A stretch of DNA of 30,564 nt from a virus. Positions 9,823 through 28,235 of the stretch are shown here, one piece after another. Made by a program: the position numbers and the translations under genes. A model generated the notes under the pieces. It made no database searches and was not told where the DNA came from. It worked only from the letters and a program-made list of their open reading frames with translations. The stretch spans positions 1 to 30,564 of IMG/VR virus record IMGVR_UViG_3300011113_000220; one strand, given 5' to 3'. Numbering within the stretch: the stretch's first letter is position 1; every line of letters starts with the position of its first letter.

Positions 9823-11775
9823 TTATTGATTTCCGTAAATAGGATTAGTTGGTAAAAAGCCACGATGAGGCATATCCTCGGGAAGCTGTGCTACATACTT
9901 TGGATTGCGCACCTTATATCCCATGCGTTCAGCTGTGGCAACTGCTACACGTGTTGCATCTGGATCATTAGGATTAATCTTTGCGCCTTTGGCATCTACG
10001 AACACCCTCTTTTCCCAGTAATGTTTGCAGTTGCCTCCGCCCTTAAAACGCCATATATCATAAACATCATCACCATTCGGCCCCCATCCGGGATTTACCG
10101 CAACGGTTTCCATTCCTACTATATCTTCCATGCGATATAGCTTACCCGCTTCCATCATCTTCGCACAGAATGGGCGCATATTATCATGCCCAAAGCTACC
10201 TGCATAAACGTAACGAGTAATAAAGTACTTACCATCCACCACAGCATCTTGCTCACTCTTAGCAGCAGGTCGAGCAGCACCCGTGCGTACTGCAAACTCA
10301 TGCTCAATCTCTTCATCTGCGTTGTAGCTATCTATCAATATCCATTCAGGATTCTCATCTTCACCTAATGCAATGAGCGCATCACCCACGGTAGAATCAT
10401 CTACTTTTTTTTTTAACTTAACACTTGATTGAATAATGTCGGTTGGTTGCAATGAGCCTGCAATAACATCGGCAAAGATTGCATCTATAATAGCAGCTGG
10501 TAACGTTGGGAACGCTGCACCCACAATCGCCTTAGCACTACTTACAGGAACGGCACCTGCAGCACTTTGCATCACAATATCAATAAGTGAACTAATCTGT
10601 GCACCGTTCAAAGCCGTAGCAGCAACATCCGTCGTAGTGCCTGTTGCGTCCGCATCGGTTACAACAGATGTTTGTTCTGCTACAAGTGGAGTATTAGGTA
10701 TGATTTCGAAGTTCACACCCGGCATTTGATTGCTCAATAGTTCCGTGATGCTCTTGTCTATTAGTGTTTGGTATGGCTCGATTACTTGCTTATTAAATAT
10801 CTCCAAGCCCGTAGCCATTTCATCTTTGTTCGAACCAAATCCTGATGTTTCGCGAATACCAAACAGCAGCGGGGTAGTAACACGGTGTGCAGTTATTATC
10901 TTTTGCTGTGCGGTAGTATCCATTAATTGGTACTGCTTATCTGCATCATTAACTGGAAATGGTGTAATCTCAGTCTTAGGTTGATCACGTTCGTTAAAGA
11001 ACATGACTACCTTACCTGCATTACGTGCGCCGCTCATCTTATTCTCCCAGTCCATCATCATCTGCTGCTTCTGCTCAGGAGTTGCTTGCCCGTTGTAGAA
11101 GTTGATAATGGTTGATGGGAAAAGACCGTTTGAGATTTGATTGATATGGAATATCGAAATCTGCTTATCTAATTCAATGTAGTTAATCGCACTCCAGTAA
11201 TCCGGGCGAGGATAAGCCTGTGAACCTGTATAGGTAAAGCACCAATAGATTTGGCGCGGCTCTTCATTTCGTGTAAGGTAGTTATACTTTGGAATAAACT
11301 CAGGAGTATTTTTTTTCTTACGTGTGTTACTCCAGTCGTAGCTATGGTATATACCTATTTCGCTTTCGTCTTCCTGATTAATTGCAATACGGCACTCTTC
11401 AAATGGTATCGCATTTAGTTTGCTAATTACTGTACGATCATTAGACCAAATCACTTCAATAAAGAAACCGCCAAACAACTTCAAGTCATGTGCGCAAGCA
11501 TAGGTCAAAGTATTTATATCAAGTGCATCTAATTCCTCTTGGTATTGTTCTGACTTAATACCCTTCCCGGCTATCATGTCACCAATGGCTACAACTAAAC
11601 TACCATGCACAGGTGATTCGTGTGCAAGGTCACGCAGGTATTTAGGAAAGTCGTTTTGGTCACCGTAGTTTACCCATCCTTTGCGGTCTACTTTTTCCGC
11701 ATCGGACTTAGCTACATATTCACTAAGCTTCAAGCTAACTATATTCGATTCTTTATGCTCCATAGATAATATCAT
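9823..11775 (-). CDS. portal protein fused to a minor-head-like C-terminal domain
   Basis: Residues 1-450 look like a phage portal: an N-terminal segment with GDQNDFPKYLRDLAHESP, a wing/stem region with FHINQISNGLFPS and MMMDWENKMSG, and a clip-to-crown region ending GAQISSLIDIV. The portal forms the dodecameric DNA channel. After an A10 run (residues 454-457), a second domain (about 515-640) contains C537 (MRPFCAKMMEAGKLYR), NPGWGP, and C583/H585 (GGNCKHYW), resembling the Mu F/SPP1 gp7 C-terminal domain. The 650-aa length exceeds a normal portal of 400-500. ATG 11763 is an alternative start with less overlap of the upstream gene. See the finding on the A10 run. Confidence 0.85.
   Translation of the reverse strand: MILSMEHKESNIVSLKLSEYVAKSDAEKVDRKGWVNYGDQNDFPKYLRDLAHESPVHGSLVVAIGDMIAGKGIKSEQYQEELDALDINTLTYACAHDLKLFGGFFIEVIWSNDRTVISKLNAIPFEECRIAINQEDESEIGIYHSYDWSNTRKKKNTPEFIPKYNYLTRNEEPRQIYWCFTYTGSQAYPRPDYWSAINYIELDKQISIFHINQISNGLFPSTIINFYNGQATPEQKQQMMMDWENKMSGARNAGKVVMFFNERDQPKTEITPFPVNDADKQYQLMDTTAQQKIITAHRVTTPLLFGIRETSGFGSNKDEMATGLEIFNKQVIEPYQTLIDKSITELLSNQMPGVNFEIIPNTPLVAEQTSVVTDADATGTTTDVAATALNGAQISSLIDIVMQSAAGAVPVSSAKAIVGAAFPTLPAAIIDAIFADVIAGSLQPTDIIQSSVKLKKKVDDSTVGDALIALGEDENPEWILIDSYNADEEIEHEFAVRTGAARPAAKSEQDAVVDGKYFITRYVYAGSFGHDNMRPFCAKMMEAGKLYRMEDIVGMETVAVNPGWGPNGDDVYDIWRFKGGGNCKHYWEKRVFVDAKGAKINPNDPDATRVAVATAERMGYKVRNPKYVAQLPEDMPHRGFLPTNPIYGNQ
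10405..10414 (-). other. A10 slippery run at the portal domain junction
   Basis: On the coding (minus) strand the codons read TTA AAA AAA AAA GTA, an uninterrupted run of ten A at residues 454-457. A -1 shift gives AGT AGA TGA and a +1 shift gives TAG at once, so both alternative frames stop within three codons. It is a candidate site for transcriptional slippage or ribosomal frameshifting. Confidence 0.6.
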
Positions 11776-12142: not shown

Positions 12143-12155
12143 TCCTTTTTAAATT

Positions 12156-12226: not shown

Positions 12227-12769
12227 TTAGTAAGCAGGGCTTACAGTAATACCTGCGAAGTTATCGAATGGTACTGCAGTGAATGGCTCCAAGTGTACAG
12301 CTGGAGTCAATTCCTCAGCTGTTGCAGTTACTTGGTATCCCATCAAATCAGCCTTTTGAGCCCCTGATTGTACAGTACCTGCAGTCAATTGTGCACCTTC
12401 ACCGGCACCGAGCAACAAAATTTGGTCGTCATTCGTGCGAACAAATACTATCATCTTCGCCTTTGCTACATTCAAAAACTCGTTACGCATCTCTTGGTTC
12501 AACTTACCAAAAGTCCATTGAACTTCCTGAGAGAAAAACAAAGTACCAGTTTCCAAATTCTTCTGTACAGTCTCAATGTATGAACCTGAATTACGGAATG
12601 GAACGTAACGGTAGATAGTAGCAGTAGGCAAGCCGTCCACTTCTCCGTCAGGACCACCGTAAGTGATACCAGAGGTGAAGTCATCGTAGTTAGCAATCAG
12701 TATTTCTTTAACACCTCCGATACCTTCTAGGCACCCGAGGGTAAATCCAGTAGTTAAATCACAAGCCAT
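12227..12769 (-). CDS. tail tube-like structural protein, 180 aa
   Basis: It begins MACDLTTGFTLGCLEGIGGV and is beta-rich. The C-terminal half has an FVRTNDDQILLLGAGEGAQL segment followed by SGAQKADLMGYQVTATAEE. This resembles the 'D..G...G..G....G...GDl.GY.lt..g.E' pattern of siphovirus tail tube proteins. It lies just after the major capsid gene, separated by a terminator, and is followed by another, as expected for an abundant protein. A head-associated role is possible. Confidence 0.5.
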   Translation of the reverse strand: MACDLTTGFTLGCLEGIGGVKEILIANYDDFTSGITYGGPDGEVDGLPTATIYRYVPFRNSGSYIETVQKNLETGTLFFSQEVQWTFGKLNQEMRNEFLNVAKAKMIVFVRTNDDQILLLGAGEGAQLTAGTVQSGAQKADLMGYQVTATAEELTPAVHLEPFTAVPFDNFAGITVSPAY

Positions 12770-12783
12770 ACTATGTATATGTT

Positions 12784-12810
12784 TTAAAAGGGGGCTATTA
12801 CACCCCCTTG
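12784..12810 (-). terminator. terminator after the major capsid gene
   Basis: On the minus strand AAGGGGG pairs perfectly with CCCCCTT around an 8-base loop and is followed by TTAAAAC after the T pair. It sits in the 52-base gap after the capsid stop. Partial termination here would set capsid mRNA level against downstream genes. Confidence 0.75.
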
Positions 12811-12821
12811 TTATTTATTAA

Positions 12822-13718: not shown

Positions 13719-13744
13719 ATTAATTTACTTTTTTTTATTCTTAA

Positions 13745-14353
13745 TTATTTACTTTGTTTAGAGCGAATGCTTTCCATGAAGTCGCTGAATGAGTTACCAT
13801 TCGATGCAACTACGGGCTGTGCATTCTTTTTAAATTCTTGTGATTTTACAGAAGGTACAGCAGGTGCTTTCTTAACCGAAGCAAGTTCAGTCTTCAATGC
13901 TTCTGCATCCTTCTTAGCAGATTCAACTGCGGCAGCTAGTTCGGTCTTCTCACCTTCTAGTGCAGCAATGCGTTCGGACAATTGACCAATAACAGCAACA
14001 AGATCTTCGCTGCTCATTTCAGTTGATTGTTCCTCTTTTTCGATTTCAGTAATGGTACCATCTTCGCCTACATAGACTTTGGTAACACCGTCCTCAAGCA
14101 GGTATTCTCCTGCAGGTACAGGCACTGGATTACCTTCAGCATCTTGCGTGTAGATATCTACACCTACTACCCACTCATCAGCGGTAGAATAGATTTTAGT
14201 ACCATCAGCCAAAGTGCCTTCTACTGCAAACTTGATTTCCGTTGCCGGAGCTTCAGCTGCTGCAGATTCTTCTTCGAACTTGATACCAACTGTTGAAGGG
14301 TCAATGCCGTACTTATTGAATACGGATTTGATTTGTTCTTTGATATTCGACAT
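13745..14353 (-). CDS. capsid scaffold-like protein, 202 aa
   Basis: The protein is very acidic. It has a short N-terminal helix, a beta domain (about 40-108) with repeated DGT turns (LADGTKIYS, GEDGTITEI), then a long Ala/Glu/Lys coiled coil (about 115-165) and a basic tail (EFKKNAQ...SIRSKQSK). The coiled coil plus basic tail, right before the capsid gene, is the pattern of a scaffolding protein. The beta domain is unusual for a scaffold and could have a separate role. Confidence 0.65.
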   Translation of the reverse strand: MSNIKEQIKSVFNKYGIDPSTVGIKFEEESAAAEAPATEIKFAVEGTLADGTKIYSTADEWVVGVDIYTQDAEGNPVPVPAGEYLLEDGVTKVYVGEDGTITEIEKEEQSTEMSSEDLVAVIGQLSERIAALEGEKTELAAAVESAKKDAEALKTELASVKKAPAVPSVKSQEFKKNAQPVVASNGNSFSDFMESIRSKQSK

Positions 14354-14355
14354 TG

Positions 14356-14371
14356 TTGGATATTTGGATAT
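14356..14371. repeat. tandem 8-bp direct repeat TTGGATAT x2 (candidate operator)
   Basis: Two perfect adjacent copies of TTGGATAT lie three bases before the scaffold start. A partial inverted copy (ATCCAA, 14397-14402) lies nearer the divergent RHH gene. MetJ/Arc-type ribbon-helix-helix proteins bind tandem sites of about this length, so these may be operator boxes. Confidence 0.45.
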
Positions 14372-14388
14372 AGTAGCAAAAAGACTAT

Positions 14389-14419
14389 TTTGTTACATCC
14401 AACTATTTTACTATCTTAG
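14389..14419 (+). promoter_or_regulatory. promoter for the RHH gene (TTTG-N19-TATCTTAG)
   Basis: A TTTG at 14389-14392 is spaced exactly 19 bases from TATCTTAG at 14412-14419, one mismatch from the Bacteroidota TTTG-N19-TAnnTTTG consensus. It ends 24 bases before ATG 14444. Confidence 0.6.
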
Positions 14420-14443
14420 CGACTGTAAAAAATTACATACAAT

Positions 14444-14578
14444 ATGAAAACACCTACACCTTCAATGCACAATAAGATTACTGTGCGACTAAACGACAAA
14501 CAACTAAAGTCATTACAGAAAAATGCAAAGCAGCATAAAATGAATATTGCTGAATATATACGAGCTTGCGTTCTATAA
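14444..14578 (+). CDS. ribbon-helix-helix DNA-binding protein, 44 aa
   Basis: ATG 14444 encodes MKTPTPSMHNKITVRLNDKQ followed by LKSLQKNAKQHKMNIAEYIR. A basic beta strand (KITVRL), helix A (DKQLKSLQKNAKQHK), a turn (MN) and helix B (IAEYIRACVL) form the Arc/MetJ/CopG ribbon-helix-helix fold. Such proteins dimerise and act as repressors. It is the only plus-strand gene inside the 23-kb late region, diverges from the scaffold/capsid genes, has its own promoter and is followed by a terminator. Control of capsid genes is inferred. Confidence 0.75.
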   Translation: MKTPTPSMHNKITVRLNDKQLKSLQKNAKQHKMNIAEYIRACVL

Positions 14579-14601
14579 AGTGGTTAAACTGGTAAAAAAA
14601 G

Positions 14602-14628
14602 AAGCCCCTCGTTTGGGGCTTTCTTTTT
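14602..14628. terminator. bidirectional terminator between RHH gene and subtilase gene
   Basis: AAGCCCC and GGGGCTT form a perfect 7-bp stem. The plus strand continues TCTTTTT, and the minus strand continues CTTTTTTACC. It ends the RHH transcript rightward and the subtilase transcript leftward. The rest of this 101-base convergent gap shows nothing else. Confidence 0.85.
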
Positions 14629-14679
14629 ACACTAACCTTATATCACTTTATATGCGTATTAACCGCAGCTAATATAGCA

Positions 14680-16749
14680 CTATTTTTTAATCTGCAAACG
14701 TGCTGTGTTATTTGTACTATCATTATCAGGTACACCATTCACAGCCGTAATAGTCAAAACGTAATCTGTCGGTATTGGTGTAGCAGGAGCGGTGATATTG
14801 TAAACACTAGCAAGTGTTTGACTGCGACCAACGTCGATTCTATCTGCACGGTTCCAAGTTCCATTGAACCCACCTACTAAACCGTGATTAACTTTCATAC
14901 TTGTAATTACCACACTACCCTTATTGTAGAATGTGTAGTAAATCTTTACCCGGTTAGCATCAAGCCATTCGTAACGATCAATAGTAACACTTGCATCTAG
15001 CCCTTGTGCAGGTGGGTTAACAAGTGTAATAGTTATGCCTGTACTAATCGTATTATCATTCTCATTGGTTTCTTTAATCACTAAATTGGGGTCAATAGTC
15101 AACGAGAATAATGCGTTGCCTGTTTGATTGTTAGGCAATGCAAATGGTGCATTTTTAGTTACAACTGTTTGACCTTTTGGAATGGTCACATCTCCAGTGT
15201 AGAACACAAACTTGCTACCATCGGGACGGGTGAAAGTAAGATGCACCGTTGCAATGATATCTTGAGTATACACTTTGTCAACGTTTACGGTGTATGCTAC
15301 ATTGACACTTGAGCCTTGCACTGCAGTTGCCAGTGTTGATATAGTACCAAATAGATTGTATTCAGCAACGGGCACAGGTGTAGGATTGCCTCCGTCTAAA
15401 CTTTTAGCAATGGTCACAGCATTAAACATATTTACCACACCGTATCCAAGTTCAGCACTTTTACCATTAGCATCGTATACATAGCCTCCAGTCTTGCGGC
15501 ACGCTTGCTTTAATACATCCGCTACCTGCGCTTCAGTAAGTGAAGGATTAGCAAGTATTACACTTGCAGCAGCTGCAGCCATTACAGGGCAACTGCATGA
15601 TGTACCACTGAATGAAGTATAGTTACTATCGGGCTTGTAACCTGCAGCACCTGTGCGGTCGGTTGTAGGGCATGAAGTACCTGGAGCAGCAGCAAAGGTT
15701 TTTGGTCCATAGTTACTAAATGATGCACGTGTGTTTGAAGTGGTTGATGCACCAACTGCATATACCATAGGATAGATAGCAGGAGCCTGTGTAAAGTTAG
15801 GATTGTTTTGATTCCCTGAACTTGCAAAGATTGGTATGCCTTTACCGTCGCGTCCATAGGTCTTACAAGCCGTTAACGCATTTTGAAATAACGGATATGA
15901 AGTAGGATTACCACCACCCCAACTCATTGATATAGCAAGGCAGTTAGGATTAGCTATTGCCTTATTCGCGGCACGTGTTACGATTGTATCAGATGTAGAA
16001 AAACCACCACTAGAGGTTGAGCCATAACCGATGTGTAGAAATTGCACCTTGAGTTTGTTGTTTCCTAATGAAGATACTCCGATATTATTATCGGTTGCTG
16101 CACATATCAAACCACTACAAGGTGTACCGTGTCTTTCGAACTCGCTAACTGGTCTTACATCCGCAGCATCTGTTACACAGTTCCATGATGTGTCACTTAT
16201 TCTACCTACTAAATCTTCATGGTCTACATCGCAGGCAATATCGAGTACTGCAACTTCTCCGTATGCAGCACCGTCAATTAAACCCCATGCTTCTGCAGCT
16301 TGCATATTCGGTAAGTGCCATTGCGAGGTATAAGTGTAAGCATCTGCATCCGTTGCATATGGCTGTATGTAATCAGGCTCTACACTTGTGAATAGTTTGC
16401 TATTCATTAGCGATATATAGAACTCATTAAAGCTAGCAAAGGCAGGGACTTCCACAAATAGCGTATTAGTCAAGTGGAATACCTCAGTAATTACTACCTT
16501 ATTCTTATTGAGATATGCACGGGCTGCATCGAGGTCGGGAGCAACGAGGATAGCAAGACCTGTTGAGATTTGGTCTAGTGATCTATCAACCTCGTTAACG
16601 TGTGTGACCTTAGTATGGTCGGGAGTAACACGCTCCTTGTCTTCAAATACAATGATGCCGAATGGCTCGTGTACTGCAATTACGTTAGGCTTTGTTTTGT
16701 TCTTGTCAAAGGATGCCTTATCCTTAAACTTTACGCTATTTATTTTCAT
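14680..16749 (-). CDS. subtilisin-like serine protease with C-terminal CARDB-like domains
   Basis: The S8 catalytic set is complete: D170 (AVLDIACDVD), H207 (ERHGTPCSG), oxyanion N313 (ASSGNQNN) and S384 (SGTSCSCPVMAA). An N-terminal region of about 130 residues could be an inhibitory prodomain. After the peptidase (about 140-450) come two beta-sandwich, CARDB-like domains (about 465-580 and 585-689) with the NENDNTIS and DNDSTNNTA turns typical of that family. There is no signal peptide. The start is ATGA-coupled to the XkdF-like gene and the next minus gene is the scaffold, so it is probably a virion protein or a head maturation enzyme. Confidence 0.9.
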   Translation of the reverse strand: MKINSVKFKDKASFDKNKTKPNVIAVHEPFGIIVFEDKERVTPDHTKVTHVNEVDRSLDQISTGLAILVAPDLDAARAYLNKNKVVITEVFHLTNTLFVEVPAFASFNEFYISLMNSKLFTSVEPDYIQPYATDADAYTYTSQWHLPNMQAAEAWGLIDGAAYGEVAVLDIACDVDHEDLVGRISDTSWNCVTDAADVRPVSEFERHGTPCSGLICAATDNNIGVSSLGNNKLKVQFLHIGYGSTSSGGFSTSDTIVTRAANKAIANPNCLAISMSWGGGNPTSYPLFQNALTACKTYGRDGKGIPIFASSGNQNNPNFTQAPAIYPMVYAVGASTTSNTRASFSNYGPKTFAAAPGTSCPTTDRTGAAGYKPDSNYTSFSGTSCSCPVMAAAAASVILANPSLTEAQVADVLKQACRKTGGYVYDANGKSAELGYGVVNMFNAVTIAKSLDGGNPTPVPVAEYNLFGTISTLATAVQGSSVNVAYTVNVDKVYTQDIIATVHLTFTRPDGSKFVFYTGDVTIPKGQTVVTKNAPFALPNNQTGNALFSLTIDPNLVIKETNENDNTISTGITITLVNPPAQGLDASVTIDRYEWLDANRVKIYYTFYNKGSVVITSMKVNHGLVGGFNGTWNRADRIDVGRSQTLASVYNITAPATPIPTDYVLTITAVNGVPDNDSTNNTARLQIKK

Positions 16750-17342
16750 TTGGATGGATTTACATTGCTAAGTATTTGGTCAAGTTCTAATACCAACTCC
16801 GCTTCGTAGTTTTTTACGCCACTCATTGCCACACCTACTTCATTAAAGAATCCTTCAATGCTGTATCCTTTTATCTTGCCCTCTTTTACATCAGTCCACA
16901 CGTGCTCCTCGTCTACCTTAGTACCGATAAACCACGTGCCATCGGGCAACTCAGGCAAACCCAGTTCAATGCTTTTATCATTCTTTCCCTCTTTAAGCCA
17001 TGATTCTACAACAGTCACACCCGTTACAGGTATTTCGTGCTGCAAGTTAGTGGTGTGTTGCAGATTCTTTTTAAAGAATTGATGCGCGATAGCTTGCACC
17101 GTAGCCTTTTCAAAGTACACATAGTACGGTTTACCCTTCTCATCATAGCGAAGTATCTCTTTATCCGGGATTAGTGCAGGACCGTATAGCATTCTACGCT
17201 CCTCGTTTAGCGCACTTAGTTTCATTTTGCTTAATGCTATCCAGTTCTCCTCGATTGCAGGGCTATCCACTAAGCCCATAGCCGTAATACCCAAGCGACC
17301 TTCCTCATCTATTACACATTTAACTACTTTTCTTTTTTCCAT
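16746..17342 (-). CDS. XkdF-like putative prohead protease
   Basis: The protein matches the XkdF layout: an N-terminal LVDSPAIEENWIAL segment, then YGPALIPDKEILR, a YVYFEKATVQAIAHQF helix, H102 in LQHEIPV, VVESWLKEG, PDGTWFIGTKVDEEHVW and a final KGYSIEGFF with S161. H102 and S161 are candidate catalytic residues. XkdF-type proteins are thought to process capsid or scaffold. It lies upstream of the scaffold and capsid genes in transcription order. Confidence 0.8.
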   Translation of the reverse strand: MEKRKVVKCVIDEEGRLGITAMGLVDSPAIEENWIALSKMKLSALNEERRMLYGPALIPDKEILRYDEKGKPYYVYFEKATVQAIAHQFFKKNLQHTTNLQHEIPVTGVTVVESWLKEGKNDKSIELGLPELPDGTWFIGTKVDEEHVWTDVKEGKIKGYSIEGFFNEVGVAMSGVKNYEAELVLELDQILSNVNPSK

Positions 17343-17435: not shown

Positions 17436-19661
17436 TTATCCGATGCGTGCCAGGTCGGCAACGTTCTCACGAACTTCCGCTGCACTGGCAACATCACTAG
17501 CAAGTACATAGGCACGTGGTGTAATCTGCTCAGGTCTTTCCTGCAAGAATGAAGATGCAAGTGGATTAAACTGCGCAGGCTGTGATTCAGTACCACCACC
17601 ACCACCTACCGATGGAGTCGTAGTATCAGGTGTAGTTGATCCACCACCCTCAAACTTTGTGGAAGCTATTTTAGCAATTTGTGCAGCACCAGTAACGCTT
17701 GCCAATGAAATTGCAATAGGCAAGGTAGGGCTAGGAAATGGATTGGCACTTATGGCGGCAGTAATCGCTTTTGCTGTATCTATTGTAGCAGCTGCAATTT
17801 GTGAGGCTTTTTGGAACTTAAATTGTTTTTTGGCAAGTGCTTCTTCTTCTTTGCTTCCCTTCTTAACCTTTGACATTCTATTTGAAAATACTGTATCAGC
17901 CAAACTATTAAACGCATTCAAACTTTGACCAGCTAATTCTATACCTTTATTAAATTGTTCAAGCAATGAATTCGCTGTACCTGCCGCCGCTTTGTCTTGT
18001 ATTTCTTTTATTTTTTCGGATAACTCCTTTTGCAGTTTAGTTGTATCCTTTCCGGCTGCATCTGCTTTTGCAAAAAGTGCTTCGTACTTTTGCGTTATGC
18101 GTAGTTCTTCTTGCTCGGTATTGTTTAATGAGTTAAAATAACGCTCATCTTCTGCAGCTATAAATTCATTTTGTAAATCTTTATATGAGTTAAAGAAATC
18201 ATCTTCTAAACTTTTACGCTTATCCGCTTCAGCTTGCGCATTAGCTGTGCGCTGTGCATCCAGTGCAGCAAGTTCAGCATTAAGTTGTTTCTGTAATTCA
18301 ATTGTGCTTTGATTAGCTGCATCTGCTGCGGCAAACAATGCTTCATACTTTTGAATAATAGCAAGTTCTTCCTGTTCTTCTTTCGTTAATGTTTCTTCAT
18401 ATTTCTCATCTTCCAACGCAGCAACCTTATCGTAGTAATCCTTTTGCGCTGCATATTGCTTGTCAAGTGCGGCTTTTTCATCCGCTAGTTTTTTATCCGC
18501 TGCCGCCTTTGCATCTGCCGCTGCTTTTTGTGCACGTGCCTTTTCTTTTGCATCTTGGGCATTTAAAATTTGGTCACGCTGATTTCGTAATCCTACTAAT
18601 GTTTTTTCAGCTTCTCTAATTGTAGCATCCCCTTCCTTTTTTGTCTTATCAGGATCAAATATCTTTTTAGTTAAAAAGTCGTTTACATCATCAAATACTT
18701 TTGTAAAATTGACCTGCTCTATTTCAGCACCAAAAAAGTTTAGAGTTTTAATAGCACCATTTACAAACGTTTGAAAGAACTCAGCAAGTTTGCGCTGGGG
18801 CAACGTTACAAATTCAAGAAACCCACGTAAATAGTCGGCATTGCGTTTAGCAGCTTCAACCTGTGCCTTTGCTTGAGTTTTGGTAGTTTCAACTACTACC
18901 TCCTGTTCAAGAATCGCAGCATCTAAGGCTTGTAATTTTAAGGCAACAATTTCCTCTTCTGTTTTGCCTTGTCGCTTTAATGATTCCTCTTGTGCACCGA
19001 TTGCATCTACTTGTTCTTTAGCTAATGCAGCACGCTCCTTTTGTTTGTTAAGTGCTTCCGTTTCAGCATCGGTCACACCATCAATTAAACTCAACAACTC
19101 ATCGGCATAAACAATAGCAGCGGCAATAGCAGCACCTATCAAAAAGATAGGGTTTGTAAGTAATGCCTTACCAACTGATGCGAATGCACTACCAATGCTT
19201 TGAATACCTTTGGCAATATCACCCGGCTTTACTTGACCAATGTTTACAGCTAATTGCTTTGCACCTTCAGCTGCACCTTGAAAATCAAGATTAGCAATAC
19301 GTGAAGTTACCAGTCCTAATGATCCACCTACACGCTCGAATGCACCACCCGCCTGTGTACCTACAGCTTGAGCTGCATCTTGAATCTTGTCTTTAAGTTC
19401 ACCCGCTGCGGCTGCAAGTTCACGGTACTTTGCTGAATCAGGGTCTGTTGCTGCAAGCTGTGCCTGTAAATCTTTTAATTGCGCCTTGAGTGACTTACTT
19501 GATGTAACTACCGTTTCTTCCGCAGCCGCTACATTCTCAAATGACTGCGCACCTTGGTTGATGGCGGTTGAAGTCGCATTGATTTGAACGTTTAACTCCT
19601 TAAGGTTCTGCTCACTTTCGGTAGTGTCAATTACGAAACTCCGTACAATAGGTTCAGCCAT
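17436..19661 (-). CDS. tape measure protein
   Basis: The 741-aa protein is the tail length ruler and DNA ejection component. It is largely helical, Ala/Lys/Glu-rich coiled coil, with a hydrophobic segment at about 170-190 (NPIFLIGAAIAAAIVYADEL) and a second apolar region near 640-675 before a Gly/Thr-rich linker. Two related repeats of about 65 residues (409-470 and 492-556) share the core EEQEELAIIQKYEALF. Length predicts a rather short tail of roughly 110 nm by the usual 1.5 A per residue rule. The start overlaps the preceding stop (TAATG). Confidence 0.9.
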   Translation of the reverse strand: MAEPIVRSFVIDTTESEQNLKELNVQINATSTAINQGAQSFENVAAAEETVVTSSKSLKAQLKDLQAQLAATDPDSAKYRELAAAAGELKDKIQDAAQAVGTQAGGAFERVGGSLGLVTSRIANLDFQGAAEGAKQLAVNIGQVKPGDIAKGIQSIGSAFASVGKALLTNPIFLIGAAIAAAIVYADELLSLIDGVTDAETEALNKQKERAALAKEQVDAIGAQEESLKRQGKTEEEIVALKLQALDAAILEQEVVVETTKTQAKAQVEAAKRNADYLRGFLEFVTLPQRKLAEFFQTFVNGAIKTLNFFGAEIEQVNFTKVFDDVNDFLTKKIFDPDKTKKEGDATIREAEKTLVGLRNQRDQILNAQDAKEKARAQKAAADAKAAADKKLADEKAALDKQYAAQKDYYDKVAALEDEKYEETLTKEEQEELAIIQKYEALFAAADAANQSTIELQKQLNAELAALDAQRTANAQAEADKRKSLEDDFFNSYKDLQNEFIAAEDERYFNSLNNTEQEELRITQKYEALFAKADAAGKDTTKLQKELSEKIKEIQDKAAAGTANSLLEQFNKGIELAGQSLNAFNSLADTVFSNRMSKVKKGSKEEEALAKKQFKFQKASQIAAATIDTAKAITAAISANPFPSPTLPIAISLASVTGAAQIAKIASTKFEGGGSTTPDTTTPSVGGGGGTESQPAQFNPLASSFLQERPEQITPRAYVLASDVASAAEVRENVADLARIG
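18057..18380 (-). repeat. tandem internal repeat in the tape measure gene
   Basis: Residues 428-448 and 515-535, 87 residues apart, share 17 of 21 positions (core EEL.I.QKYEALFA.ADA). The surrounding 40 residues align more loosely. It looks like an internal duplication that lengthened the ruler. Confidence 0.7.
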
Positions 19662-19834
19662 TAGTAGATTAGTTTAGCGATTAGGTAAATGATTAAAAAG
19701 AAAAGAAACGTGCGCCACACATACAGCGTGATATACCACATCCAACGCTGCCACGGGCGTAATGAATATACGTGCTGTGGAAGTGTCTTAATACCGAGCT
19801 GCAAAAAGCGCAATGAGTTTTTTATATTGTCCAT
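19661..19834 (-). CDS. small membrane protein, 57 aa
   Basis: I place the start at ATG 19834, two bases after the upstream stop, rather than at an upstream ATG inside that gene. The protein has a basic amphipathic first half and one membrane helix (about 34-55, YVWRTFLFFLIIYLIAKLIY). It lies between the tail-tip gene and the tape measure gene. A role in tail assembly or ejection is possible but not shown. Confidence 0.55.
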   Translation of the reverse strand: MDNIKNSLRFLQLGIKTLPQHVYSLRPWQRWMWYITLYVWRTFLFFLIIYLIAKLIY

Positions 19835-19835
19835 C

Positions 19836-22800
19836 TTATGTGTATTTACTCTGTTGGTATTGCAATGAAGCCGTAGCAACTATGTTAATAGGGAAGGTCG
19901 CACCTGCAACGTCAAAATATATGCGATGCTCATCGGTATCGCTAACTACATCCACATCCCATGTAAACGTGTAACCTGCATACGTTCCTGAAGATGCAAT
20001 CAAAACTGGAGCAGCATAACCTGCAACACCCCCCGTTTTATATAATAGCATCGAGTATTGTTCTGATACAATTACAGTCATTGCAGCATCACGAATTGTT
20101 ACGTTCATTATGCAGCTCCATACCGTATCATCTGGTATGTTTAAATATTTGGCAGTAATACCTTCTACATCTAAAACAATATCTTGCCCTGTTGCAGTTA
20201 TAGCTTGTAGCCTGTGAAGTATTACCGTGCCTGATTGTGCCCATCCTAATTCGGTATTAGTCACATCTCCATTTTTGTAACCACCGCCTATATGTATACC
20301 GGGCAAATTCGTTGTAACATTTTTACCGAGCAAATTGCTACCGTCAACATTTTCGGTTAACTCCAAACGAGTGCCAACGGCTAACATATCCTTATTACCG
20401 TTTGCAATTGTAACCGCTTCACCATTTACAAAACTATCGGTTATTTGTGCGTTACGTGTTTGCGCTGCAGTTCTACGCGGTGCTGGGTTAGTAGCGTTGC
20501 CCGTTGTAGGTGGATTTGGTCTATCGCCCGTAGGGATATTTGCCCAGCATACACCATCATCTTCATCCCATGTATAGCCATAACGTTGGCAGCAATCCTG
20601 AGTTGAACTTATAGGGTCGCCATTGGCATCTTCAAAATTTACTTCACCATTGGGGCTAACTGAAATGGGCGTGCCGCTGCAATCTTCAGTATTTTCTAAA
20701 AACTTTATGAGTTTTACCTTAGTGCTTTCGTATCCTCCTATCTTGTAATCAGTAATCTCAAGTATGCGCCAATAGCTATCCTCTATCCATATCTTGTCAC
20801 TAAACTTAAAAGTCAATACATCTTTTAAATCGAGCGCAAAGGATGCCTCCATTATTCTACCTTGAGGTGAATACAAAGCATTCATATATGTACGCCAATA
20901 CTTATTAAATAAATTATTGTACGGGTTAGCTACAATAAAGTGTGGTGGCACTTCAGGCGCCCAGTTCAAATCCTCATCATCTATTTCTGCATATATAGTG
21001 CTGTAATTATTTAGCGCAGGTATTGAACTTAAAGCAGAAACAGCACTCCCATCATCATATACCTGTATATCCCAGTAACCTGCCTCAAATAAACAACGAG
21101 GACCGGGTGGTATAAACTGCAAAGAGTCATTTAAAAACATCGGTATAACATAGCCATTGCCATTGACTACGCCCGAAGGTGTAGAGCGTGTGACTAATTG
21201 TATCTTTTGGTCACCTATTGCAAAATCACTAGATGCTGTGTTAGGATTAATCGTGTATCCTACTGCCTCATAGTCTCCATAAATACGTTCTGCATTTCTA
21301 TACTGCTTAGAAATAATATCCTCACCTGCCGTGTACGTAAACTGAAACTTGCCTTTTTGTAGATCAACAGTGCTACTTAGTACTACATCTTTACTTGTAT
21401 CTAATTTAGAAGTCCAGTCTAATGTATCCCCACTACCTAAATAGCTATTCTGAGGAACAATATATATCTTAGTAGGATTTGCCCTATCTGGGACAATCGC
21501 GCAATTATGCATTTTTATCACATCCGTTACAAAGTCAATCTGCTTCATATCGGGTGAGTTAAAAGAATAGATAATTGTTTGCGAATAGTTCAGGTGAGCA
21601 ATTGCTAATTGAACAGAACTATTAGCCTGAAAGGTTGCAGTGCCTACGCCTTGTTTATATGCAAACCATTCGACTGTATCACCCTGATTCAAAGTCATTG
21701 CATGGTTAAAGCTCCACGCATTATTGCCCGTAAAGAACTGCGTATCTATTACGTTGAATACTTCAGTACCATTCTTAATCGCTTGCACAAATACACGTGC
21801 ACTTGCTCCTGTTATAGCTACAACAAACTGCAAATTAAAATTGAAGATACCACTAGCAGGTGCTGTATATGTATACGTTGCAGGGTCATAGTCTCCATTA
21901 TTGTCATATATCTCAGTATTAAATGGAATATAGATATTATTAACTGTGGTATTCGTACTCATTTCAGCTTTGAAACCATACGTACCTGCAGTATCGTTAC
22001 CATGTAGATAGCGTGTATTGCACCACGGCATCCAGTACATAGAAATTATATTTTCCAAAGTACCTGCCGACAATTCAAATCCTGCCTCATTAATGATATT
22101 CTCAAATAGATACCACCAATTAATAGCCGGTGTAAGGTCTGCAGGATATACTGGTAAAGTAGGGTCTTGTAATGGTCGCGTATTAGCTTCACCATTCTCA
22201 CTCCATAATTGACCACGATCTAAGATTGTCCAAATACGTGCCTGATTCGAACTTGTTACATTGCTATAACTACACGTTTCATCTAAATTATTAAGTGCCG
22301 TAATATCACTTAACTTTTTTTCTCCGATGTTACGCACTAAATCAGGAGTCTCCGCGTAGAATGCTATCTCAACTTCATTGATTCTGTTTAATTGCTTGTA
22401 TATTTTTCGCACTCGAATATAACCGCTAGATATCGGTAAAGTATCTACACGTATTTGTGCAGGCATCTTGTAGTGAAAATAACTATTTATACCTGCCTCT
22501 ACATTCACATCAAACAAAGCCCCAAGTGCTAACTGGTTTTGGTCGCTGTATGGTATTCTAAACTCACGAGTGAATGCACCCTGTGCAGTAAAGTTAGTGA
22601 GGTCTTGAAACTTCCAGTTCTGACTTATGCTCTCATTCTCGAATAAGTCTAGGTAGTATTCGGTATCTATTATCTGATTAAAGTAACCTCCTGCCGTTTG
22701 TCTAAAATCAAATGCAAGAGCACTACCAAAATTGATTGTAGTAAAACCAATGTTAGGAACATCCACCTGCACGCTAGTAACGGTTACTGTTTGCTGTTGC

Positions 22801-22970
22801 GCACTTGAATTAATCAAAGTAATCGTTTGACCAACGAGCGTAGTTGATTCGTTGTAATTGTTTACTCCGATTTTAGTCGTGCCGGGAGTACCGAATGCAA
22901 CACCATTGAGTGCTGCGTATATCGGTGTGTTATTCGATTGTGTTACTATTAATTGTACTTCTCCCTGCAT
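19836..22970 (-). CDS. large tail-tip/baseplate protein with a C1q-like domain
   Basis: The 1044-aa protein is beta-rich. Residues 1-360 resemble a tail-tip or Tal-like baseplate region (EFRIPYSDQNQLALG, RVRKIYKQLNRINEVEIAFY). About 370-455 is a jelly-roll, C1q/TNF-like stretch (FNFNLQFVV...QGDTVEWFAYKQG). Near 790-806 is a CCQRYGYTWDEDDGVCW motif with three Cys. The final 200 residues are another beta domain. Position between tape measure and fibre genes suits a host-recognition tail-tip protein. No peptidoglycan hydrolase motif was seen. Confidence 0.65.
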   Translation of the reverse strand: MQGEVQLIVTQSNNTPIYAALNGVAFGTPGTTKIGVNNYNESTTLVGQTITLINSSAQQQTVTVTSVQVDVPNIGFTTINFGSALAFDFRQTAGGYFNQIIDTEYYLDLFENESISQNWKFQDLTNFTAQGAFTREFRIPYSDQNQLALGALFDVNVEAGINSYFHYKMPAQIRVDTLPISSGYIRVRKIYKQLNRINEVEIAFYAETPDLVRNIGEKKLSDITALNNLDETCSYSNVTSSNQARIWTILDRGQLWSENGEANTRPLQDPTLPVYPADLTPAINWWYLFENIINEAGFELSAGTLENIISMYWMPWCNTRYLHGNDTAGTYGFKAEMSTNTTVNNIYIPFNTEIYDNNGDYDPATYTYTAPASGIFNFNLQFVVAITGASARVFVQAIKNGTEVFNVIDTQFFTGNNAWSFNHAMTLNQGDTVEWFAYKQGVGTATFQANSSVQLAIAHLNYSQTIIYSFNSPDMKQIDFVTDVIKMHNCAIVPDRANPTKIYIVPQNSYLGSGDTLDWTSKLDTSKDVVLSSTVDLQKGKFQFTYTAGEDIISKQYRNAERIYGDYEAVGYTINPNTASSDFAIGDQKIQLVTRSTPSGVVNGNGYVIPMFLNDSLQFIPPGPRCLFEAGYWDIQVYDDGSAVSALSSIPALNNYSTIYAEIDDEDLNWAPEVPPHFIVANPYNNLFNKYWRTYMNALYSPQGRIMEASFALDLKDVLTFKFSDKIWIEDSYWRILEITDYKIGGYESTKVKLIKFLENTEDCSGTPISVSPNGEVNFEDANGDPISSTQDCCQRYGYTWDEDDGVCWANIPTGDRPNPPTTGNATNPAPRRTAAQTRNAQITDSFVNGEAVTIANGNKDMLAVGTRLELTENVDGSNLLGKNVTTNLPGIHIGGGYKNGDVTNTELGWAQSGTVILHRLQAITATGQDIVLDVEGITAKYLNIPDDTVWSCIMNVTIRDAAMTVIVSEQYSMLLYKTGGVAGYAAPVLIASSGTYAGYTFTWDVDVVSDTDEHRIYFDVAGATFPINIVATASLQYQQSKYT

Positions 22971-22971
22971 A

Positions 22972-24261
22972 TTACGTCCAGTATTCGTTAGCGATTCTTA
23001 CCTTCAAAGTTACGTTGTACTGCTTGCCGTCACGGTTTTTCTTTTCTACATACGATGTATCATCAATGTTTACAGGAACCATTACAGGCTTGCCTGAGTC
23101 TTCAGTTAACCACGTGACTTGATTGCTTACAAGCAATGATCGCAGGAACTTAAACTCACCCTCACTAATGTAATCACTAGTAATAGTTAGCACCTGTTGC
23201 ATTAGGTTACGCCTTTCCTGCAGTCCTCTATCATTTGCACTAAACACCGTAGTTGTACCGTTAAATAATACCTTGCGATATTTCTTGCGCTCTATCTCAT
23301 CGGTAAACTCAGACTTCTTTGTGAAGTTGAAGTAATCCCATCCACCGCGACTATTAACCCAGCCAATGCGGATATTATCATTAAGGCAATCACATTGACC
23401 ATACTTAGCGGTGTTGTAAAAAACGTATGAGCAGCTTTTAGAACTACCTGCATTTTTTACGACTACCGTATAACATCTCCAGTCTGCAAAGAGTGAAGGT
23501 TTAACCGTCAACCCTGCCCAATCATTCAAATTTGCAGGATACACTGGTAGTGCCTCTATATCGTATGAATTTAAATTGATAGTTTGCGATGAAGGAACAC
23601 CCGCACTCGAATAGATTGTAATAGTAAAAGTGTCAAGTGCATTATTGCTCAGGTAAGTATTATTACCCGGTATGCAAAGTAGACCGTAGTCTGATTCTAA
23701 AGCAGGAATCCAAACAGTATTACCATTAGGCACGGCACTAAATCCCCACGTTTGCGCTAAGTAGAATGAGTGTGTATCATTTTGTCTATCACTCATTGCT
23801 AGGTTAGTCGTAGCAGTTAGTGAATATTTTACTTTTTGCTGTCCCGTTTCTACGTTTGGCTTGTATCCATCTATAACTTGAAAATAACCATTAGTACCTA
23901 GCAGTGTATTGCCGTACTGCTCACTACCTACATTGAGAGTTAACATACCACCCACTATCCACCATTCCGTTAATGTAAAGTCTATTGTCTTTTTGCTTAA
24001 ATCATCTTGCGTATCATCGGTAGAAAAGTGATAATCGAGCGGCTCATAGTTGCGTAAATCATCAATCAATGGTGCAAGGTCAAAGTATAACTTATTATCA
24101 GGAGCAGCTGGTACATAAAAGTTGTACGTTTTGCTATCAATTACAACCTCAACACCGTAACGAAAACCTAGCTGCGCTGTTTGCGTACTCGTTGCAATGA
24201 TCATTAGCTTTTGTCCCCTTACCGCCCATTCATACGGCTGGTCGTTTATAGTTATTGCCAT
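22972..24261 (-). CDS. tail protein, distal-tail-like, 429 aa
   Basis: The protein is beta-rich and soluble, starting MAITINDQPYEWAVRGQKLM, with GQCDCLNDNIRIGWVNSRGG in the middle and a C-terminal domain (about 330-429) ending NVTLKVRIANEYW. The C-terminal strand pattern is like distal tail or adaptor proteins. Overlaps at both ends tie it to the tail-tip gene and the gp10-like gene. I cannot name the family. Confidence 0.55.
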   Translation of the reverse strand: MAITINDQPYEWAVRGQKLMIIATSTQTAQLGFRYGVEVVIDSKTYNFYVPAAPDNKLYFDLAPLIDDLRNYEPLDYHFSTDDTQDDLSKKTIDFTLTEWWIVGGMLTLNVGSEQYGNTLLGTNGYFQVIDGYKPNVETGQQKVKYSLTATTNLAMSDRQNDTHSFYLAQTWGFSAVPNGNTVWIPALESDYGLLCIPGNNTYLSNNALDTFTITIYSSAGVPSSQTINLNSYDIEALPVYPANLNDWAGLTVKPSLFADWRCYTVVVKNAGSSKSCSYVFYNTAKYGQCDCLNDNIRIGWVNSRGGWDYFNFTKKSEFTDEIERKKYRKVLFNGTTTVFSANDRGLQERRNLMQQVLTITSDYISEGEFKFLRSLLVSNQVTWLTEDSGKPVMVPVNIDDTSYVEKKNRDGKQYNVTLKVRIANEYWT

Positions 24262-24791
24262 TATCTTTTATTTAAAAGTAACCGTTGTTCTACTGACTTA
24301 ATGTATCCTTCCATTAGCCTATCCTTGTATTCGTCCCACGTATCATCTATCGCTTCAGCATAGTAGTTAATACCTTCTATTCCCTTTTCGCCAATGCTCT
24401 TAGCAATAGCAATTGCCGCACTCTTTATGTTGCTTTCCGTTGCCTTTATGAATTCACCCTGTCTATTGCGCAGCTTCAATGGTTTTAACTTAATCCACTT
24501 CATAATATCCTTGTAAGGTGGTCGCTTTGTTGGGTCACCCGGATATGGTTTGCGCCCAAACTCGATTACATCTGCATACTTTCCCGCCTCATCATTAGAG
24601 ACTGTGAAGTCTATTGTAGGTTTGTTATAGCGTATCTTCAGGTTATAGTACAGCGAGTTGAGCAAACGACCTGAAGCTACACGATTAACGGTCTTGCCAC
24701 GCACCCTGCGTTTGATGCGCAGGTTGGATTGCGCACGCTCAACAACTGCAAGCGCATATTCGTTTAATATGTTCTCAAACTCATCGCTCAT
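24261..24791 (-). CDS. HK97 gp10-like tail completion protein
   Basis: The 176-aa protein has an N-terminal helix, a basic segment (RIKRRVRGKTVNRVASGRLLNSL), then KYADVIEFGRKPYPGDPTKRPPY, the 'YA..vEfGr.p' signature of HK97 gp10-type tail completion/head-tail joining proteins, and C-terminal helices. It shares a base overlap with both neighbours. In this phage it lies among tail genes, as is usual. Confidence 0.75.
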   Translation of the reverse strand: MSDEFENILNEYALAVVERAQSNLRIKRRVRGKTVNRVASGRLLNSLYYNLKIRYNKPTIDFTVSNDEAGKYADVIEFGRKPYPGDPTKRPPYKDIMKWIKLKPLKLRNRQGEFIKATESNIKSAAIAIAKSIGEKGIEGINYYAEAIDDTWDEYKDRLMEGYIKSVEQRLLLNKR

Positions 24792-27469
24792 TAGCTACGT
24801 TCAATTACAAATGAGATAGATACAACCGATGCACTCGCCACAGTTGCATTATTGATTAACTGAATCGCAAGCAAATCACCTGCATTAATAGCTAATGTAT
24901 TCGTATTATCGCTCTTTGTAGGCGAAGCACCATCCGCACTAGACACGGTTACAGCAACACTACTAGAAGTCGCATTGTTACGCATGGTAATTACCAGCGT
25001 ACCCGTTGCACTTTGTGTACCGCTCATCTTTACATACAGATTCTTAAGCGTACCGGCAACAGGCACAGCAAAGTGACGGTTCGATTCAGTTGCATTGAAA
25101 GTAGTAAGACCACTTACAGCGGCGTATACCGTTGTAGATGCACCTACGGTAACAGCATACACGTTACCATAAGTAACCGTGTCTTTTTTATTATTGAGCT
25201 GCGTCTGAATAGCTGAAGTCACACCATCCAAATAACCGAACTCTGTATTGCTTACTGTTCCCGTTCCGATTTTTGTTGCATCAATCCCGGTAGGCATATC
25301 ACCCGCAGCAAGTGAAGTACCTGCAGTCACAAGTCCCTTGCTGTCGTACGTTATTTTGGTAGCTGTTGCGCCTGTTATTGGTGCATTGCCTGTTAGCTTA
25401 CCATTAAACGTAGACCAATCTGCGCTGCTTAACGCACCACGATTGGCTGCACTTGCCGTTGGTAGGTTGAAGGTGTGTGTGCCACCTGCGCTACTTATTG
25501 CAAAGTCAGTTCCGGATGTACCTACTGCGAAGTTCTGCGTGCTTTCGGTTAAGCCATTCAAAGAACTTAAACCTATTGCATAGGTTGTATGAACTTCACC
25601 TATTTTGCTATCTTCAGTATAAAGAGTGACCGTCTTGCCGTTTGTGTTTTGAATATCAAATTCAATATGTATACGGTCGGTTGCTGCGGTTACGGTAGTA
25701 GGTACTGAGATAGTGAACGTGTACAAATCAGGCACGTTGCCGTTTGTGATTTGTTCTAATGTAGAAGTAGCCACTAATGTAAAAGTGACTCCATTATAAG
25801 TGTAAAGCTTTGCAAGTATTTCGGCATGGTTAGCACCACCTCCAGTCTCACTTAAATACACATCAATTGTCCATACACCTGCAGGTATTATAAGGTGATT
25901 AGGTGAACCTACATCTGTAATGAAACGAGCGATTGTACCTGTTGTAGCACGTGTGAAGTTGGCTGCTGGTCCTGTGTTGGCTGCAGTACCTAATTCGTAG
26001 TAATTATTACCTCCTATTGTACCCTGCGAAACGTTACCATTAAAGTAGAAGATTTGACCACCACCACCGCCTGTAGATGGGAACGTGCGAAGCGCACCTG
26101 TGCCATCGATGTATTGATCATTTGTACCATTAGCACCTATTGCAAGTGTGCCCGATGTGGTCACGGGTGAACCTGTTACAGTGAAAGCAGCATTAGCAGG
26201 TGAAGGTACTGTAAGACCTACGGATGTAACTGTACCACTACCACCCGCCGCAGGTGTTGTAACAATCCATCTACTCGTAGCAGTATCCCACGTAATTACT
26301 TGACCATTGCTAGGGCTTGTGATATTTACATCACTTAAATTCACAAGAGGTATTCTACCCTTACGCCACACAGTACCGTTCCAACTTATTACATCTCCTG
26401 TTGCAGGACTCGTTGCGTCCACATCTGCGAGGTCGTCAAGATTAACAGGAATAGTTGGTTTGTTTAAGATTTCTGACACACCACTAACTGCGTTCCAATC
26501 GGAATTGACCTGTGCCGCAGGTATGGTAGGTAGATTTGACAAATCATTGTAATCGCCCGTTGTGGCAACTGTTGCCAGTGTTGGCTTATTCAGGATTTGA
26601 TAATCACCTGTAGAGGCATTCCAGTCTACAGGATTTTGACGCAAGCGATAGCCTACACTTTGTAAAGTCCAGTATGATGTATTAGTAGGTAATATTGCAT
26701 CATTATTAGCAATGCAAGCGTATACGTTACCATTGTACCATACACGGTCACCTATTACATATTGATTGCCCTGTGCTGTTGTATGGTTTACATTAAACTC
26801 AGTTGATACATAAGGCGCACCACCACCACCACCACCACCTGCAGCATCAATAGTTACAGTACCATTCCCATTATCTGTTATTGTGATGTTTGTACCTGCT
26901 TCTAAGTTGAGAAGCGTTTGCACCACGTTATCTACTCCGTTTGTTTGTAGTGTGATGCCGTAACCTACACCACTGCCACCACTGCCTGATGCACCACCCA
27001 CAGACCATACTGCCGGGATATCACACGCGCTCCAGTCCCACGGAACTTCAAGTTTAATTGTGAAGGCAACACCTGTAACCGTGTTTTTTTGTTCCTCCAT
27101 AAATGGCTCGAACACGACCTCATTGACTAACTGCACATCAAATCCAAATAGCTGCAGTCCATTCTTTACTTCAGCTATTAAGTCTTGACCTAATCGTATG
27201 CAATCGCTAATCACTTCGCGCTGGTATTCGGCTTTGTATTCTTTGTCACGGGGTATATCCGCAAACATGATGTGAAAGCCAAACTGCATACCACCTTGCA
27301 CGGGTGTAATCGTATCGGGTGTTACGTGCATGAATGGGTATTGATCATCCTGCAGTTGGTCGGCTAAATCAATTTGCCCGTGCGTAAATCGCTTAATCAA
27401 AAAGTGACCCGCAGCAAATGCTTCCAGTCGATTGATTAAAACGTTGTAGCTGTAATTGTAGCTATTCAT
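24791..27469 (-). CDS. fibre-like structural protein with a tail-terminator-like N-terminus
   Basis: Residues 1-150 form an alpha/beta domain (LINRLEAFAAGHFLIKRFTHG, then FGFHIMFADIP and EVISDCIRLGQDLIAEV) that looks like a tail terminator or completion protein. After a Gly/Ser linker and a poly-Gly run (about 210-217) come fibre-type modules: a Trp-rich carbohydrate-binding-like unit (GDRVWYNGNVYACIANN), repeated DWN...ILNKPT and LSDVNITSPSNGQ elements, and a C-terminal beta domain (about 765-892). The mix suggests a receptor-binding fibre. The start overlaps the chaperone extension stop (TAATG). Confidence 0.7.
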   Translation of the reverse strand: MNSYNYSYNVLINRLEAFAAGHFLIKRFTHGQIDLADQLQDDQYPFMHVTPDTITPVQGGMQFGFHIMFADIPRDKEYKAEYQREVISDCIRLGQDLIAEVKNGLQLFGFDVQLVNEVVFEPFMEEQKNTVTGVAFTIKLEVPWDWSACDIPAVWSVGGASGSGGSGVGYGITLQTNGVDNVVQTLLNLEAGTNITITDNGNGTVTIDAAGGGGGGGAPYVSTEFNVNHTTAQGNQYVIGDRVWYNGNVYACIANNDAILPTNTSYWTLQSVGYRLRQNPVDWNASTGDYQILNKPTLATVATTGDYNDLSNLPTIPAAQVNSDWNAVSGVSEILNKPTIPVNLDDLADVDATSPATGDVISWNGTVWRKGRIPLVNLSDVNITSPSNGQVITWDTATSRWIVTTPAAGGSGTVTSVGLTVPSPANAAFTVTGSPVTTSGTLAIGANGTNDQYIDGTGALRTFPSTGGGGGQIFYFNGNVSQGTIGGNNYYELGTAANTGPAANFTRATTGTIARFITDVGSPNHLIIPAGVWTIDVYLSETGGGANHAEILAKLYTYNGVTFTLVATSTLEQITNGNVPDLYTFTISVPTTVTAATDRIHIEFDIQNTNGKTVTLYTEDSKIGEVHTTYAIGLSSLNGLTESTQNFAVGTSGTDFAISSAGGTHTFNLPTASAANRGALSSADWSTFNGKLTGNAPITGATATKITYDSKGLVTAGTSLAAGDMPTGIDATKIGTGTVSNTEFGYLDGVTSAIQTQLNNKKDTVTYGNVYAVTVGASTTVYAAVSGLTTFNATESNRHFAVPVAGTLKNLYVKMSGTQSATGTLVITMRNNATSSSVAVTVSSADGASPTKSDNTNTLAINAGDLLAIQLINNATVASASVVSISFVIERS
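26818..26838. repeat. (CAC)7 trinucleotide tract encoding poly-Gly
   Basis: Seven CAC units encode seven Gly residues in the hinge after the N-terminal domain of the fibre-like protein. Such tracts can change length by slippage without breaking the frame. Confidence 0.75.
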
Positions 27470-27738
27470 TATCTATTGCGTTTTCTCATTTCTACTTTTT
27501 GCACGTACACGTAATCCGCTAGGTACGTTAAGTGCGTAAATACTTCTAATGCTCTCCTATCTGTAACAGCATCAAACTTTGTTATATCACGTTCAGCTAG
27601 TGACTCAATGATATGAAACCAACCGTACACGGCTAAGCCGTCTGGGGTTGTTCCTGCTTCATCTCCTTCACTATCTCCGTTATCTCCTTTGCCAAATATT
27701 CTAGGGAACTGTTGTACAGTTCTATTTCTAAACTCGAA
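27469..27738 (-). CDS. -1 frameshift extension of the tail assembly chaperone (GT-like)
   Basis: From the T9 run the -1 frame stays open for 89 codons to a TAA at 27469-27471 that overlaps the next ATG. It has no usable start of its own; the only Met is near the end. It reads as a Gly/Asp/Glu-rich linker followed by a compact helical domain (YGWFHIIESLAERDITKFDA, then TDRRALEVFTHLTYLADYVY). This layout fits the T extension of lambda-like G/GT chaperones. It explains an otherwise gene-free stretch. Expected fused product about 255 aa. Confidence 0.75.
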   Translation of the reverse strand, partial: FEFRNRTVQQFPRIFGKGDNGDSEGDEAGTTPDGLAVYGWFHIIESLAERDITKFDAVTDRRALEVFTHLTYLADYVYVQKVEMRKRNR

Positions 27739-28235
27739 AAAAAAAGCAGCACATTCAGTACATGGTCAAGTGTGAGCTGTAATACCTCATCTTCGTACTT
27801 ACGTTTGGCGTTAGGGTTGTACGTTTCAATATCGTAGTACTTCCCAAACTTTGCCTTCACAGGTCGGTATAGTATGCACATCATAGCGTGTGCAGCCTTG
27901 CCTTGTATCTTACCATCTTTGTAGATGTTACCGCAATGCGTATCCAAGTCTACGTATTCGCCAAACGTTAACTCATTCAAGTTAGGTATAAACCCTAACT
28001 CGATTGCACCTACTCGCACTTTGCGTTCAAAGTCACTACTGCCTAATTTTATTGCAGCCTCAAAGCGCATGATGATTTCATCAATGACATTTGATTGCAA
28101 AAGGCGGATGCTCTCGCTGCTCTTGCCTGTTATGATGCGCACCTGCTCAACTTTATCGACTGCGTTTTGATAGTCGATGTACTTGCCAAGTGTTACACCC
28201 TTTGCATTTGCTGCTATGCTGAACTTTAATTTCAT
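27633..28235 (-). CDS. tail assembly chaperone (G-like)
   Basis: The 200-aa zero-frame product has FSIAANAKGVTLGKYIDYQN at the N-terminus and ELTFGEYVDLDTHC plus AAHAMMCILYRPVKAKFG in the middle. That 'FGeyvDld ... Lyrpv' order is seen in tail chaperones of Bacteroidota phages. Codons 164-167 run CTT TTT TTT TCG, giving a T9 slippery run. After it the zero frame adds 34 residues and stops, while the -1 frame continues to 27469. Such proteins wrap the tape measure and recruit tube subunits; here it opens the tail gene block. Confidence 0.7.
   Translation of the reverse strand: MKLKFSIAANAKGVTLGKYIDYQNAVDKVEQVRIITGKSSESIRLLQSNVIDEIIMRFEAAIKLGSSDFERKVRVGAIELGFIPNLNELTFGEYVDLDTHCGNIYKDGKIQGKAAHAMMCILYRPVKAKFGKYYDIETYNPNAKRKYEDEVLQLTLDHVLNVLLFFSSLEIELYNSSLEYLAKEITEIVKEMKQEQPQTA
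27737..27745 (-). other. T9 slippery run, probable programmed -1 frameshift site
   Basis: Nine T on the coding strand (C-T9-C) at codons 164-167 permit tandem Phe re-pairing one base back. The -1 frame then runs 89 codons, while the zero frame ends 34 codons later. Confidence 0.7.

Follow-up and report, generated by a model that had tools for sequence, protein, structure and literature searches.

Does a gene in the late region of this phage DNA encode two products, joined from two reading frames at a run of nine Ts, and if so, how is the slip made and what would the products do? The window, i.e. the whole stretch of DNA analyzed here, is the IMG/VR virus record IMGVR_UViG_3300011113_000220 with a length of 30,564 bases. 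An earlier note on this sequence had proposed a ribosomal -1 frameshift in a tail assembly chaperone gene. We located the T9 run exactly where it had been placed, 166 codons into the gene. It reads 27745..27737 on the minus strand (A9 on the plus strand), is exactly nine Ts long, falls in codons 164-167 and contains the heptamer T_TTT_TTT in the 0-frame register X_XXY_YYZ. The 0 frame ends with a TAG at 27635-27633 (minus strand). The -1 frame can be read without a stop through 89 codons (27738 to 27472) until a TAA at 27471-27469, and the final A of this stop also begins the next gene's ATG. Thus, both the 89 open codons and the overlap of their stop with the next ATG, as described in the note, were reproduced. 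The further claim that the extension lacks a start of its own holds for ATG, which does not occur until 7 codons before the -1 stop, but GTG codons are present. The features considered below are as follows.

27633..28235, minus strand: 0-frame product of 200 aa, comprising a proposed G-like core and a 33-codon 0-frame tail past the slip site (phrog_32199, E 1e-12; AlphaFold pLDDT 83.6)
27737..27745, minus strand: putative T9 slip run, CTT TTT TTT TCG, with heptamer T_TTT_TTT in register (nine or ten Ts at each of the 287 distinct sites in homologues)
27469..27738, minus strand: -1 extension of 89 codons plus TAA, a proposed T-like domain predicted as a three-helix domain behind a flexible linker (pN/pS 0.107)
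24791..27469, minus strand: next gene, 892 aa, the ATG of which (27469) overlaps the stop of the extension
17436..19661, minus strand: tape measure protein, 741 aa, four sizeable genes downstream of the putative chaperone gene (phrog_24676, E 1.7e-8)
10405..10414, minus strand: coding-strand A10 run within the portal gene, the second conserved homopolymer and a proposed second slippage site
9823..11775, minus strand: portal ORF of 650 aa with portal domain, A-run linker and a C-terminal domain of ~193 aa (phrog_33693 portal, E 1e-67)

Across seven large ORFs in this DNA, 0 of 3980 positions had a -1 frame open for at least 89 codons. The window contains two A/T runs that reach nine, where ~1.0 would be expected, and the T9 run by itself therefore means little. 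It is the conservation of the run, not its mere presence, that is remarkable.

As judged from the aligned sequences, two conserved coding frames meet at an invariant T run that is never shorter than nine. We consider it likely, with a probability of roughly 0.83, that the gene is programmed to yield two products and has a chaperone-like role. One gene would thus give two products in the manner of lambda G/GT. The majority of translation would produce the core protein of 200 aa, and a minority would slip at T9 and continue in the -1 frame, resulting in a protein of ~255 aa composed of 166 aa of the core and the 89 aa extension. By analogy with G/GT, many copies of the core would coat the tape measure protein and the extension would recruit the tail tube protein.

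Conservation of the T run and the -1 frame

Relatives were gathered using three types of query: the core, the extension alone, and distant members. After removal of duplicates, the T run was present at 287 distinct sites (T9 in 275, T10 in 12), which correspond to 55 clusters at 80% identity and 23 clusters at 60% identity. At all 287 sites the -1 extension was open for 70-105 codons, but an open extension of this length was the condition for entry, so that the tally is not blind; no homologue with a broken -1 frame was found among these preselected sites. The heptamer was in register at all tabulated sites. A site-by-site check of the relatives' loci that span the run detected none shorter than nine. 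The close homologues (69-99% identity) all carried T9, an open -1 extension and, where the contig reaches far enough, the 0-frame stop. As for the conservation that the earlier note had asked about, both the T run and the -1 ORF are kept, the exceptions in run length being two contigs with T11 and T12.

These two contigs, L359 and L365, are near-identical phage contigs in which the run at the slip site, around position 2972, is T11 in one and T12 in the other. In L359, core and extension are fused in one frame. The deviating lengths represent either an error or a length polymorphism.

A first scan of genome contigs yielded no relative. When the scan was performed with a later query, six contigs binned with various hosts were obtained, which we treated as phage contigs, and T9 was present in all six. 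T9 was also found at the same place in an isolate, Nonlabens phage P12024S (27% identity). Here gp38 and gp39 (NC_018271.1, L082 9001-9695), annotated as separate hypothetical ORFs, correspond to the two frames of a single gene, gp38 to the 0-frame product and gp39 to its -1 extension, the annotated start of gp39 being an ATG that overlaps the stop of gp38. Nonlabens phages P12024S/L (genus Inhavirus; phrog_32199) are the sole cultured members found of the same gene family, with T9 and the -1 extension. They differ from the window in that the gene is split into two hypothetical ORFs and in that the portal ORF is without a long A run. On the sequences compared, even phages with only about 25-30% identity retain the T run of this putative chaperone family. 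The family is large in environmental viromes, with at least 600 stretches matched by a single query.

Polymerase or ribosome at the run, and a second run in the portal gene

Insertion of a U by RNA polymerase and ribosomal -1 slippage on U_UUU_UUU would result in an identical protein. The earlier note had assumed a ribosomal frameshift. A programmed -1 product is upheld by our analysis, but the data lean slightly to slippage by RNA polymerase. Baranov et al. 2005 (PMC1088944) consider that nine consecutive As or Ts, when conserved across homologues, very likely reflect purposeful transcriptional slippage, and the T9 run has both properties used to recognize such sites, a length of about nine or more and conservation of this length among homologues. 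The run was never below nine at the 287 sites and was kept in three codon arrangements: NTT TTT TTT TNN, TTT TTT TTT CNN, and NTT TTT TTT TT(G/C) TGG. A following codon that begins with C or G is paired with TTT as the preceding codon, and the length remains nine Ts. No upstream SD-like motif was seen by eye in 65 sequences, and pseudoknot-free folding revealed no downstream signal in 22 sequences (z about 0). Note that stimulators are not needed at every -1 site, and lambda-type sites may do without them. Coding can account for part of the run length, since each T at the edge occupies the second position of a hydrophobic codon in one of the two frames; runs of at least nine therefore do not strictly prove that a given length is required. 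The codon arrangement with a non-T base at the start of the following codon may have arisen in a single evolutionary event.

A second homopolymer bears on the question. In the portal gene, a run of A9-A11 encodes KKK in a linker, the flanks of which vary widely between relatives; ~47 distinct portal linkers carry such a run. T9 and the portal run occur together in 11/11 window-clade genomes (the window and ten relatives), in which other A/T runs of nine or more amount to one coding and one intergenic run in total. Besides T9, the window-clade genomes conserve only one coding A/T run that reaches nine, namely portal A9-A11. Lysine in these portals is encoded by AAG 493 times vs 334 times by AAA, and in the window a further portal KKK, at about codon 154-156, is spelled AAG AAA AAA. 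PF04860 matches the N-terminal part of the portal; the C-terminal part had no Pfam match. Off-frame stops follow the run within 5 and 9 codons, but equally near stops in both off-frames are found by chance at ~26% of portal codon positions and the portal sequences compared are related, so we do not regard the near stops as striking by themselves. Near stops in both off-frames are likewise seen at the A9 transcriptional slippage site of Thermus thermophilus dnaX (PMC5009743, PMC1088944); unlike dnaX, the window-clade portal is a phage structural gene and its slippage is putative. The long A run was missing from the portals of divergent relatives, including P12024S. The loci with the run are window 10405-10414 (minus strand), L456-L475 and L511-L549, and the run in L543 is A12, which may be an error.

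A purely ribosomal -1 slip on T_TTT_TTT, with the length of nine being a coding constraint flanking the heptamer, has a sizeable chance, somewhat below even. It is consistent with the in-register heptamer at all tabulated sites, with the precedent of SPP1, which has a putative UUUUUUC in this type of gene (PMC6316719), and with the wide conservation of G-T frameshifting in long-tailed phages (PMC5009743). Against it stand the failure to find a stimulator, the occurrence of T7 or T8 at 0/287 sites, the change of the preceding codon to TTT that keeps nine Ts when the following codon is not T-initial, and the fact that the portal run keeps AAA AAA AAA instead of the shiftier A_AAA_AAG. In E. coli, U_UUU_UUU is a weaker ribosomal slip site than A_AAA_AAG (PMC5009743). 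The maintenance of at least nine Ts despite codon changes at the edges, the lack of stimulators and the portal A run together tilt the balance towards the polymerase. Thus, we slightly favor a slip that would be made mainly by RNA polymerase adding one extra U.

SPP1 17.5/17.5* is the closest parallel to the site itself, sharing a U-run heptamer, a tail chaperone gene and the -1 direction (PMC6316719). The SPP1 site is U6C, whereas the run in the window family is never below nine and its length is kept through edge codon changes. The earlier note had regarded the use of a homopolymer as distinguishing; T9 is indeed conserved, but a homopolymer is not unique to this family given the putative UUUUUUC of SPP1 (PMC6316719). 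What is new is the family and the variant of the slip site, G/GT-type frameshifting being already well known, and the finding that the run never drops below nine despite codon changes at both edges, with no stimulators found. Among the papers searched, none combined tail assembly chaperone, frameshift and Flavobacterium phage, and none dealt with a tail chaperone frameshift in which a T run is spelled out.

The portal A run, conserved in the window clade, is a possible second programmed slippage site; nothing resembling it was found in the portal papers searched. More tentatively, with a chance approaching even, polymerase slippage at T9 and at A9-A11 in this uncultivated phage lineage may set how much short relative to long form is made of a tail-assembly factor and also of the portal (alone, ~455 aa, or fused to the C-terminal domain, 650 aa). 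The conserved run of nine together with the portal A run makes it testable whether phages set the ratios of structural proteins by polymerase slippage. For annotation, it suggests a search rule, namely to look for conserved A/T runs of at least nine within phage late genes.

Role of the two products

The core matched the profile of phrog_32199, to which no function is assigned, in 65/65 members. No Pfam or NCBIfam match above noise was obtained for the core, nor a match to a named PHROG chaperone family, and a sequence search against solved structures returned nothing. The extension gave only insignificant matches to solved structures by sequence (SurA and other helical proteins). This is thus a protein family without functional annotation in the libraries searched. 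AlphaFold predicted the core with confidence (pLDDT as listed) and the extension as three helices behind the linker (79.6). Foldseek against the PDB found nothing with E < 0.78. In a second look with VIA-align, the sole PDB chain listed was HK97 gp13 (2ob9), with a weak Z of 3.8; the alignment covers 58 residues at 10% identity and is confined to core residues 1-66, the N-terminal third, so that the likeness is suggestive only. Significant matches in BFVD were unnamed phage proteins, including that of P12024S. Among the best 50 BFVD matches, the few named ones were tail assembly proteins, all with poor E-values.

The gene lies upstream of the tape measure gene on the same strand, not adjacent to it, with four sizeable genes intervening. 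Known chaperone genes usually lie directly beside the tape measure gene, although this position does not define them. The order downstream (tail terminator-like, HK97-gp10-like, two long genes, tape measure; the first two roles judged by eye) recurs in divergent relatives, where the putative chaperone gene is likewise the first gene of the tail module. Lambda G/GT also has two products with a common N-terminus, the minority one -1 extended, encoded upstream of tape measure. It differs from the family described here in having its own slip site, G_GGA_AAG, instead of T9, in showing no detectable sequence relation, and in that the window gene is followed by several genes before the tape measure gene.

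Based on architecture, synteny and the weak structural match, we propose that the protein probably functions as a tail chaperone working in a G/GT-like manner, without claiming homology to a known chaperone family. The designation as tail assembly chaperone in the earlier note is therefore likely to be correct as to role, without resting on membership in a described family. We also considered a programmed frameshift gene encoding a head- or packaging-associated protein. The gene directly follows the terminase large subunit in P12024S, a terminase-like gene precedes it in L504 as well (by eye), and no chaperone family model matches. Such a role nevertheless appears unlikely in view of the short/long two-product architecture, HK97 gp13 as the sole PDB chain listed, and the tail-module genes that follow in the same order in divergent relatives.

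Selection on the two frames and neighboring genes

Selection was analyzed on either side of the run. Upstream of the slip, pN/pS in the window clade was 0.24 for the 0 frame vs 1.94 for the -1 frame. In the overlap, over the first ~20 codons, both frames were constrained (0.27 for the 0 frame and 0.45 for the -1 frame) and overall divergence dropped. Past the 0-frame stop, the -1 frame had a pN/pS of 0.107 vs 1.63 and 1.97 for the others. In a distant clade the extension had a pN/pS of 0.20, with gaps blurring the overlap test there. Such a pattern is characteristic of a pair of proteins that are encoded in different frames and joined at the run.

These data also bear on whether the extension is a separate small gene, translated by reinitiation near the stop of the core. 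The ATG of gp39 overlapping the gp38 stop in P12024S, and a GTG soon after the core stop in the window, would be in line with this arrangement. However, the -1 frame is already conserved ahead of every candidate start, the T run is invariant, and in 17/64 representatives the 0 frame of the core spans >80% of the extension, which excludes reinitiation at the core's stop as a general route. We therefore rejected a reinitiated separate gene as very improbable. A sequencing or assembly error, i.e. one in-frame gene with a miscounted homopolymer, is negligible for the family: homopolymers are error-prone and one of the T11/T12 contigs reads through in frame, but the run and both open frames recur at 287 distinct sites and in an isolate genome, with purifying selection on both frames in the overlap.

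Several observations concern the neighboring genes. The N-terminal part of the next gene (24791-27469, minus strand) resembles, by eye, a stand-alone gene of 153-164 aa that follows the putative chaperone gene in L498, L500 and L506; the remainder has tail-fibre-like repeats and a weak match to a carbohydrate-binding module. A tail-region protein of 1044 aa (19836-22970, minus strand) contains a C1q domain (PF00386, E 3.6e-9). Within the head/tail block, a subtilase-like protease of 689 aa (14680-16749, minus strand; phrog_3677, E 1.7e-32) adjoins a separate gene resembling a head maturation protease. The gene order of the late block (minus strand) is unusual in that the tail genes (17436-28235) come before the protease, scaffold-like, capsid, probable tail tube (12227..12769) and portal genes (9823-17342), and the terminase large subunit maps to the far end of the record, on the opposite strand.
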